Positions 60,893 through 63,000 of a stretch of DNA of 64,000 nt are shown piece by piece (position 1 is the stretch's first letter; the number at the start of each line of letters is the position of its first letter). This stretch comes from Alternaria dauci (lineage: Eukaryota; Ascomycota; Dothideomycetes; Pleosporales; Pleosporaceae). Made by a program: the position numbers and the translations under genes. The notes under the pieces are model-generated. The model made no database searches. It saw only the letters and a list, made by a program, of their open reading frames with translations, and had not been told where the DNA came from. The stretch is from positions 2,232,001 to 2,296,000 of the forward strand of contig NC_091276.1 of assembly GCF_042100115.1 (NCBI RefSeq). The letters are read 5' to 3'.

Positions 60893-60898
60893 AAAAAA
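60893..60898 (-). terminator. Pol III oligo-T terminator of tRNA-Arg
   Basis: Six consecutive Ts on the minus strand, one nucleotide after the discriminator base of the tRNA. This is the usual RNA polymerase III stop signal and suggests the gene is intact as a Pol III unit. Confidence 0.8.
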
Positions 60899-60899
60899 G

Positions 60900-61022
60900 C
60901 GACCGATGTGGGACTCGAACTATGGTCTGATTAGTATCTATGTTTGGAACGGTTAGTGGGATGAACTTACCCCACAGCCTCAGCCTTAGGAGGGCTGCGC
61001 GCTACCATTGCGCCAACCGGCC
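60900..61022 (-). tRNA. tRNA-Arg (anticodon CCU) with 51-nt insertion in the T-arm
   Basis: Read 61022 to 60900, the gene folds into a full cloverleaf. The acceptor stem has seven pairs including two G-T wobbles. The D-arm is a 4-bp stem with loop AATGGTA. The anticodon stem CAGCC/GGCTG carries loop CTCCTAA (anticodon CCT, decoding AGG as Arg). The variable loop is AGGCT, the T-stem GTGGG/CCCAC and the T-loop TTCGAGT. The single departure is 51 nt (60920-60970) between T-stem position 53 and T-loop position 54. Without it the RNA is 72 nt with every stem paired. An A-box-like TGGCGCAATGG is present. Six Ts follow the discriminator. There is no intron at the normal 37/38 site. Confidence 0.85.
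60920..60970 (-). other. Spliceosomal-intron-like insertion inside tRNA-Arg(CCU)
   Basis: The 51-nt insert begins GTAAGTT, contains CACTAACC at 60951-60958 and ATACTAATC at 60929-60937, and ends CATAG. Introns in the protein genes of this window have the same donor (GTAAGT), the same ATACTAAC-type branch box and sizes of mostly 45-57 nt. The cut point is exact to within one G. After removal the T-arm is perfect. The final G of the insert sits before TTCGAGTCC, so a near-consensus B-box remains even in the unspliced gene. Confidence 0.7.
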
Positions 61023-61449
61023 AGATGCTTCTTATTGGAGAAACCACGAGTGTATCTATATATATTGTAATAGCAAATGTCCACCAGGAAAGCATCCTGA
61101 ACGAACAGCACACGTGCTTCAAGACATCGCTCTTTCAACCTAAATCGGCCAAGCTCGGCTCTCGACATTCGGTCCATTCATAATGATGAGACTTCTTTCT
61201 CCAGGGTCCGATAACTGAACCTTCTACAAGAACACAAAGAACCAAGACCAAAATGACTACACATACATGTCCGTGATGGCATTTCTCAAATACTATTCCC
61301 CAACTTTCACTATATACCCGTTTCGTAGTAACACACTCGCTATTTGAACAAGGAACCGCCAAACCAAAGTATCGTAAAACATGGCCAGAACATAGATGCG
61401 TAACCATCAACCCGTCACTTCCCCCCAAGTCCTCATGATCAAAGCGCGA
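61023..61449. other. Intergenic, nothing further recognised
   Basis: 5' flank of the tRNA gene and 3' flank of SPO7. No coding frame of note. Confidence 0.5.
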
Positions 61450-63000
61450 TCAAGCACTCTCGGCCCTTCCACTACTGTTGCTACTACCTTCGCGACTACT
61501 CCTCCTCTTTCCGACCAGTCGAACCGGCGGTCTCATATCGCTTCTCCCCTCAGTCGCAGCCTCATACCCCCTATCTTCATCCATCTCACTCATGCTCGAC
61601 GCATTACTCAACATACTGGTTCTCTTGCTTTGCCAGGGTAGATTCCCCTCACTAGGCGTACTAGGTCGAGAGCCCACGCTACTTCTCTGTGGCGGTTGTC
61701 TTGCCGACTGCGCGTTACCCTGTGTGATGGTCGAGCTGGAGCGGAGAGAAGACTTGCGGCTGGTAGTTGTACTGGTGGACGTGTTACTCCATCGACGCTC
61801 ACGGCTTTCGGCAGGCCGGAGACGACCGTCCAAGTCGAGGTCCGGGGTGGGTGTTGTGCTTCGCGAGGAGCTACGGGAATGTGATCCGTCCCTTCCTCTG
61901 GGGGTTTGCAGCAGACTTTGTCGCCGTTTCCGTGAGCCCGAGTGCGAGAGGCTGTGGCTGTGACCGTGGAGATGGCCGCTCTTTTCTACGTCGGCGCTTC
62001 GCCCGCTGAGACCGCGGGCGCGCTTCCAGCCTCGCCAGCCGGTCCACCATAGCCAGCCTCCCTCTTCCCTTGCAATCTCGCGTTGTCTGGCGCGGACGCG
62101 TTTCCGCAGCTCTGCTCGTCGCTCGTTTTCCGTGGCCCAATATTCGTTCCTGTAAACTTCCCACTCTTGGCGGAAGTCGGGTGTGAAGGGCTTCGGGAGG
62201 AGGAGGAGCTTGATGTAGTCGCCTCCCGGTGCAATGTCTTCCTCGGCGTATTCTTTGCCGTCTTCGACGATGCGATGGCGGGGTCGGCCGCCGTCCAAAG
62301 CATGCTTGTTTTCCTGCGCAACGTTGATGAAGTGGTAGGAACTGCCGCCCTGCTCTCCACCCCACAGGCCACCGGAGAAGGGCACGACAAAGCGACCCCA
62401 TTCCACCAGCTCTCTCCACCACGGCCCCCGTATGACGACAATCTTGGCATTCATGCCTCTGAGGCCTCGATTTGCAACGCCGATCCACCGGCGCGGCCAT
62501 CTCACTCCTCTCTCCCATTGTCCAGTGGCCCAAAAGAGCAGCGCGGTGACGACGCCAGTTATGAAGCCAACCTTTTGCAGCATATCAACGAGCCAGTACT
62601 GTGACCCTCCAATACCTTTGCCGTCCTCTCGTGGGCGCAGCCACAGCAGGTAGAAGCAGAAGCCTATCCATACTGCCAACAGCGTGAGGACGAACGTGTT
62701 CTGCCGCCGGCGGGCGCGCAGGGTAAGATACTGGCTGCGAAGACTGGCTTCGAGTATGAGGAGGTTCAGGTAGATCTGCGGCGGCGACGAGGGGAGGAGG
62801 GACGTCGGGTCGCTGAGGACGGGGGGTCGCGGCGTCTTGATGGTGGGCAGGCGGCCGTTGTTGGCATTGTGGGGTGTGTCTTGGAGGATGGAAGCAGAGT
62901 ACGGCGGCGGGTCGCGCTCGACGCTTTCAGCGACCCTGTTCAGGCTTGTGCTCGGCGGCGGTGCACCTTTGACAATCTGGTCGAGTGTCTGCGGCGCCAT
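61450..63000 (-). CDS. SPO7: Spo7-like regulatory subunit of the Nem1-Spo7 phosphatase
   Basis: Spo7 binds the phosphatase Nem1 at the nuclear/ER membrane; the pair dephosphorylates the phosphatidate phosphatase Pah1 and so controls lipid and nuclear membrane growth. Single exon, 516 residues from the ATG at 63000. A disordered Pro-rich N-terminus leads to the family block Ile-Tyr-Leu-Asn-Leu-Leu-Ile-Leu-Glu-Ala-Ser-Leu-Arg near residue 76. Two membrane helices follow at about residues 101-122 and 136-163. The cytosolic part contains Tyr-Ile-Lys-Leu-Leu-Leu-Leu-Pro-Lys-Pro-Phe and Asp-Phe-Arg-Gln-Glu-Trp-Glu-x-Tyr-Arg-x-Glu-Tyr-Trp. The last 180 residues are Ser/Arg-rich and probably phosphorylated. 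It is longer than the yeast protein because of this tail. Confidence 0.9.
   Translation of the reverse strand: MAPQTLDQIVKGAPPPSTSLNRVAESVERDPPPYSASILQDTPHNANNGRLPTIKTPRPPVLSDPTSLLPSSPPQIYLNLLILEASLRSQYLTLRARRRQNTFVLTLLAVWIGFCFYLLWLRPREDGKGIGGSQYWLVDMLQKVGFITGVVTALLFWATGQWERGVRWPRRWIGVANRGLRGMNAKIVVIRGPWWRELVEWGRFVVPFSGGLWGGEQGGSSYHFINVAQENKHALDGGRPRHRIVEDGKEYAEEDIAPGGDYIKLLLLPKPFTPDFRQEWEVYRNEYWATENERRAELRKRVRARQREIAREEGGWLWWTGWRGWKRARGLSGRSADVEKSGHLHGHSHSLSHSGSRKRRQSLLQTPRGRDGSHSRSSSRSTTPTPDLDLDGRLRPAESRERRWSNTSTSTTTSRKSSLRSSSTITQGNAQSARQPPQRSSVGSRPSTPSEGNLPWQSKRTSMLSNASSMSEMDEDRGYEAATEGRSDMRPPVRLVGKRRSSREGSSNSSGRAESA

Follow-up and report, generated by a model that had tools for sequence, protein, structure and literature searches.

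A spliceosomal-type intron in the T-arm of a nuclear tRNA-Arg(CCU) gene of Alternaria dauci

By the textbook view, the spliceosome acts on mRNA and a few other RNAs, whereas introns in tRNA are handled by a separate endonuclease and ligase. Close to a tRNA among these other RNAs is U6 snRNA, since the U6 introns of Schizosaccharomyces and other fungi place an mRNA-type intron in a small, structured RNA made by Pol III. Splicing of the U6 precursor is reportedly impaired in pre-mRNA splicing mutants, and the U6 introns of fission yeast (Schizosaccharomyces) are said to contain a match to the B box. The fission yeast intron is thought to stem from reverse splicing (PMC10484740). In fungal U3 snoRNA genes, the introns have canonical GT-AG borders, an RCTRAY branch site, and a branch-to-acceptor distance of 6 to 36 nt, and interrupted and uninterrupted U3 paralogues coexist in eight genomes (PMC5832005). 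According to the same 2017 paper, U3 and U6 alone among small structured RNAs were known to carry introns often. Spliceosomal introns of the mRNA type have also been described in ascomycete rRNA genes, likewise within a structured noncoding RNA (PMC11889510).

For tRNAs themselves, a 2026 review still classes splicing as spliceosome independent (PMC13149111). The nuclear tRNA-Ile(UAU) of the red alga Cyanidioschyzon merolae carries an intron between positions 53 and 54 that has a bulge-helix-bulge motif (PMC9602550). A review ascribes such C. merolae introns to that alga's splicing endonuclease and, by its account, a defined bulge-helix-bulge is missing from many of the ectopic tRNA introns in the nucleomorph of Guillardia (PMC3978253). 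Among the matches listed in our literature search, which covered titles and the openings of abstracts, we found no report of a spliceosomal intron in a nuclear tRNA. A preliminary, sequence-only reading of the locus described here had named no established case in a nuclear tRNA; within our searches, this holds for spliceosomal introns, but it had to be corrected for the position, given that the C. merolae intron, of the bulge-helix-bulge kind, also lies at 53/54.

The window that we analyzed is a 64,000-nt stretch of the Alternaria dauci genome (NC_091276.1, positions 2,232,001 to 2,296,000), and positions below refer to it. On its minus strand, positions 61022 to 60900 matched the Rfam tRNA model RF00005 with 44.7 bits (cutoff, 29) over model positions 1 to 71 of 71, with E values of 8.9e-8 in a 2-kb stretch and 2.9e-6 in the whole window, where it was the sole Rfam match above the cutoff. 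Based on the Rfam alignment and the structure, exon 1 (60971..61022, minus strand, 52 nt; tRNA positions 1 to 53) comprises the 5′ strand of the acceptor stem, the D-arm, the CCU anticodon arm, the variable loop, and the 5′ strand of the T-stem. Exon 2 (60900..60919, minus strand, 20 nt) comprises the T-loop, the 3′ strands of the T-stem and the acceptor stem, and the discriminator G. The two exons are separated by a 51-nt insert (60920..60970, minus strand), and when they are joined without it, they form a 72-nt tRNA with the anticodon CCU and 21 of 21 pairs in the four stems.

The insert lies between the last base of the T-stem and the first base of the T-loop (53/54), outside the 37/38 position, although its border could be drawn one base differently (52/53 or 53/54), since the base that precedes it and its own last base are both G. 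No intron is present at 37/38, and the anticodon loop of the tRNA-Arg(CCU) is uninterrupted. The split cloverleaf proposed in the sequence-only reading, including the absence of a 37/38 intron, is thereby borne out, and the observation is confirmed as real rather than a product of chance. ARAGORN found no tRNA in the window, and it found none at this locus when long introns in the anticodon loop were allowed, which illustrates how tRNA finders can overlook split genes of this kind.

The insert starts with GTAAGT and ends with CATAG at the borders set by the cloverleaf. Since these borders are fixed by the tRNA and not by the motifs, the motifs are an independent observation. A TACTAAT branch-site motif is located at 60930..60936 (minus strand), with its branch A 11 nt from the 3′ end of the insert, and a second possible branch-site motif, CTAAC, is located at 60952..60956 (minus strand), with its branch A 33 nt from that end; all four motifs named in the sequence-only reading (GTAAGT, CTAAC, TACTAAT, and a terminal TAG) could thus be placed. 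A relaxed rule (GTRNGT...YTRAY...YAG) was satisfied by 3 of 2,000,000 mononucleotide shuffles of the insert and a strict rule by 0 of 2,000,000, with both rules having been drawn up after the insert was seen.

For comparison with mRNA introns, three tubulin genes of this genome supplied a control set of 13 introns, placed by spliced protein alignment to templates. A fourth tubulin gene that was found (L080) is only distantly like the templates and was omitted. Given that GT-AG borders were imposed on the control introns, the comparison concerns other features only: 8 of the 13 are 48 to 57 nt long (the other five are 65 to 200 nt), 11 start with GTRNGT, and 12 have a YTRAY whose A lies 9 to 19 nt from the end. 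The insert fits on all three counts, at 51 nt, with GTAAGT, and with a distance of 11 nt. The earlier claim that it has the size of the mRNA introns around it was checked on these tubulin introns, and its length agrees with theirs. The insert also combines the features of a U2-type intron, namely, a GTRNGT start with GT-AG borders, a fitting YTRAY distance, and a length typical of the genome. "Spliceosomal-type intron" is very probably a good description of its sequence. The sequence-only reading of a spliceosomal-type intron in the T-arm is thus strongly supported at the level of sequence, with its claim on precedent corrected and with a second CCU gene now to be reckoned with (below).

The gene is flanked by sequences of a Pol III unit. 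Upstream, TATATATA (61057..61064, minus strand) is a Pol III-type TATA element 42 to 35 nt ahead of the tRNA, with TATAWA starts at −42 and −40. A TATAWA was present in the −45 to −29 bin of 5 of 23 nuclear tRNA genes, and four bins lying farther 5′ each held none (0 of 23); these 23 genes are the nuclear tRNA genes that ARAGORN detected in the fetched loci, including the second tRNA-Arg(CCU) gene, which has a TATAWA at −40. Within the gene, TGGCGCAATGG (61005..61015, minus strand) is presumably a box A-like sequence, and we take AGTTCGAGTCC (60911..60921, minus strand) to be box B, as it has 10 of the 11 letters of the consensus, GGTTCGANTCC. Box B spans the end of the intron and exon 2, and because the terminal AG of the intron completes it, the insertion point spares the promoter. 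Downstream, a TTTTTT terminator (60893..60898, minus strand) starts 2 nt after the discriminator base, and a run of at least five T's within 47 nt downstream was found in 23 of 23 nuclear tRNA genes. TTTT would stop Pol III, and no run of three or more T's occurs inside the gene or the insert. The absence of TTTT from the insert is nevertheless uninformative, because only 3 of the 13 control introns contain TTTT. Judged by sequence, the tRNA-Arg(CCU) thus has the elements expected of a Pol III unit, and intact stems, a CCU anticodon, and Pol III promoter and terminator sequences, as looked for in a functional tRNA gene, are found together here.

The sequence-only reading had suggested a search for other tRNA-Arg(CCU) genes and held that another intact one, together with unspliced or missing transcript, would mark the interrupted gene as a pseudogene. 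The first half of that pairing exists: an uninterrupted nuclear tRNA-Arg(CCU) gene (57.4 bits) is located at G000:C2:1067001-1067072 in the genome (34.9 Mb, 10 contigs). A pattern for the CCU anticodon gave 28 genome matches, of which 2, the interrupted gene and the C2 gene, were both exact and nuclear; a gene with a very different D-arm would escape this pattern. One further match is a mitochondrial-type Arg(CCU) gene (L024), four others with CCU or near-CCU letters had no Rfam tRNA match, and the remaining ones, scanned with Rfam in part, show other anticodons. The RF00005 search of the genome scored 63 of 931 candidates, so that the resulting list of tRNAs is a lower bound. In the C2 gene, the first run of five T's lies 47 nt downstream, the furthest among the 23 nuclear tRNA genes.

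The interrupted gene and the C2 gene are identical at 55 of 72 positions. Sixteen of the 17 differences are in stems, where six pairs are changed on both sides and four on one side, and none is broken. This pattern would be expected if the cloverleaf had constrained both CCU genes since their separation, although it is silent on constraint after the insertion. Because the uninterrupted C2 gene exists, function of the interrupted gene after insertion is not forced. In six open frames of the window that have Pfam support, each taken from one stop codon to the next, AGG accounts for 34 of 258 arginine codons, which implies that the codon is in ordinary use.

Set beside the described systems, the insert shares with the C. 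merolae intron its 53/54 position in a nuclear tRNA, but the algal intron has a bulge-helix-bulge, whereas the insert has complete spliceosomal signals and no 3-4-3 core at a register that keeps the mature tRNA. It resembles the fungal U6 introns in being of the mRNA type within a Pol III RNA, yet U6 itself takes part in splicing, and a tRNA does not. U3 introns likewise have canonical GT-AG borders and a branch site and likewise occur alongside uninterrupted paralogues, but in a snoRNA rather than a tRNA. The hosts of the ascomycete rRNA introns are rRNAs transcribed by Pol I, as opposed to a tRNA transcribed by Pol III. Canonical 37/38 introns also reside in nuclear tRNA genes, and they differ in position, splice signals, and expected enzyme.

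The anatomy of the locus, a cloverleaf with its stems intact, the sequences of a promoter and a terminator, and an intron signature that matches mRNA introns of the same genome are all seen directly in the DNA. The most likely single reading, with roughly even prospects of being correct, is that a spliceosomal intron interrupts a Pol III tRNA gene here and is excised by the spliceosome to yield a functional tRNA. On this view, a nuclear tRNA-Arg(CCU) gene of the Pol III type would have gained a U2-type spliceosomal intron at 53/54, by reverse splicing or some other form of gain. Pol III would transcribe the gene from its TATA box, box A, and box B, and the spliceosome would take out the 51 nt before the ends are trimmed and the T-loop is modified, leaving a normal 72-nt tRNA plus CCA that could then be charged. 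Tentatively, and with prospects slightly short of even, we propose a functional nuclear tRNA that would rely on the spliceosome to mature, with lariat splicing preceding RNase P/Z trimming and T-loop modification and with AGG decoding tied in part to the capacity for mRNA splicing. Since a T-arm intron in Cyanidioschyzon prevents cmPus4 from making pseudouridine 55 in vitro (PMC9602550), early removal of the intron would presumably be best here too.

If this reading is true, dependence of a tRNA on the spliceosome would break the division between mRNA and tRNA splicing and would show that spliceosomal introns can enter Pol III genes beyond U6. A point against the reading is that transcripts made by Pol III do not carry the m7G cap, which helps splicing. 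If true, the gene would offer a natural case for asking whether splicing needs capping and coupling to Pol II.

It is also quite possible, at somewhat lower probability, that the interrupted gene is a spare copy, disrupted when a spliceosomal intron entered it recently, that it is silent or its transcript is never matured, and that the C2 gene supplies the tRNA. The existence of that uninterrupted paralogue favors such an explanation, as does the predicted folding of the precursor. In the minimum-energy fold, the T-stem GTGGG pairs with an intron CCCAC, which sequesters the 5′ splice-site GU, whose two bases have predicted unpaired probabilities of 0.01 and 0.07. At −37.8 kcal/mol, this fold is 10 kcal/mol lower than the cloverleaf with the insert left free (−27.7 kcal/mol), and as a prediction it would count against easy splicing. 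Together with the real T-stem, the insert's first part is able to fold into a mock T-arm (GTGGG...CCCAC; window positions 60956 to 60975, minus strand).

Under one form of the spare-copy explanation, the intron would be spliced only from Pol II read-through of the upstream Spo7 gene, without a tRNA being made. Spo7 is on the same strand as the tRNA, and its open frame stops at 61450, leaving ~430 nt before the tRNA starts, so that Pol II read-through into the tRNA is possible. Among the best 120 of 1306 matches to the Spo7 protein, of which the top one reached 92%, a protein of Alternaria sp. BMP 2799 is 91% identical; Pyrenophora tritici-repentis, which like Alternaria belongs to the Pleosporaceae (order Pleosporales), is also among the matches listed. 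A spare copy sits less well with the lack of any broken stem pair, with the presence of the TATA element, box B, and terminator, and with an insert that has complete splice signals and is placed where box B is spared. As the insertion may be recent, however, this intactness argues only against an old pseudogene. Even a dead gene would document, exactly to the base, how a structured RNA gained an intron, which is a rare record and would be useful for testing models of reverse splicing.

An ectopic tRNA intron that is cut by the tRNA splicing endonuclease, with its GT-AG appearance being incidental, is an improbable explanation. The endonuclease of ascomycetes is known for introns at 37/38, and a complete spliceosomal signature at precisely these borders is very unlikely to arise by chance. 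The insert has the non-37/38 position of an ectopic tRNA intron, but it lacks the 3-nt bulges and 4-bp helix: no 3-4-3 bulge-helix-bulge core was found at either of the two registers under which the mature tRNA is unchanged, and a strict core occurs only at a register that would change it. Relaxed junction helices do exist at the insert, in keeping with endonuclease cleavage, but they are as common in shuffled inserts. In support of this explanation, the insertion point is that of the C. merolae intron with its bulge-helix-bulge (PMC9602550), and ectopic introns lacking a defined motif are described from the Guillardia nucleomorph (PMC3978253). Given these Guillardia precedents and the fact that the 3-4-3 core, present in 24% of shuffled inserts, was absent in the other 76%, the missing bulge-helix-bulge is weak evidence.

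An origin of the insert by tandem T-arm duplication, with splice sites arising by chance instead of coming with an incoming intron, is very unlikely, although it would concern origin only and be compatible with the spliceosomal reading. The first part of the insert (GTTC, TCCCAC) resembles the T-arm of the tRNA itself, but the resemblance is not significant: equal scores were reached against the 3′ part of the tRNA by 162 of 5000 mononucleotide and 580 of 5000 dinucleotide shuffles, against the whole tRNA by 511 and 593 of 5000, respectively, and against the tRNA with its trailer by 942 and 908 of 5000. Least probable of all is an assembly or sequencing artifact that put an mRNA intron inside a tRNA, since the insert was found nowhere else in the assembly at E values up to 10 and base-exact borders on both sides would be unexpected for a misjoin, even though mitochondrial sequence seems to be present in nuclear contig C3 and the assembly may therefore not be flawless.

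We also searched the genome for other tRNAs interrupted in this way. GTAAGT...YAG followed by a T-loop gave 7 matches (11 in the reversed control) and CTAAY...YAG followed by a T-loop gave 16 (59 in the control), each including the tRNA-Arg(CCU), and the equivalent CTGAY...YAG pattern gave 42 (60 in the control). When the other matches (18 distinct places plus the 42 from CTGAY) were scanned with Rfam, none gave a tRNA match, while the C2 tRNA was recovered as a positive control. These three T-loop patterns, which would miss other branch motifs or other insertion places in the T-arm, thus found only one interrupted tRNA of such a kind in the genome. No second copy of the insert and no donor intron was found in the genome at E values up to 10, a search that strongly diverged copies would escape. 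The insert does not look like an introner-like element multiplying in this genome, which should occur in multiple copies, as it matches only itself at E values up to 10. Exact patterns gave no match in contigs of IMG/VR or GTDB, an unsurprising outcome given the fungal origin of the gene.

Among other RNA genes, the U6 search (47 of 2080 candidates scored) returned four matches, of which the two strongest have no insert, so that no other Pol III gene with such an intron was seen; like the finding of only one such tRNA, this counts against the spliceosomal reading. Two matches to fungal U3, of 222 nt each, were also obtained. One U6 locus (L078; G000:C1:5437718-5438105) contains a full-length match; a shorter U6-like match (44.4 bits; cutoff, 44) lies on the other strand at a distance of ~230 nt. 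At G000:C3:970757-970847 (L027), ARAGORN called a tRNA-Asn(GTT); when the gene is read with a 37/38 intron, its loop is CTTCTA-A (intron at the dash), which fits a tRNA-Arg(UCU). Finally, the region at G000:C3 ~3,344,000-3,425,000 (L003, L010-L012, L022, L024, and L067) holds AT-rich tRNA genes of mitochondrial type in a dense cluster, together with two group I introns. Located near the end of a nuclear contig, this cluster looks like mitochondrial DNA joined to a chromosome contig, through either misassembly or a large nuclear insertion.
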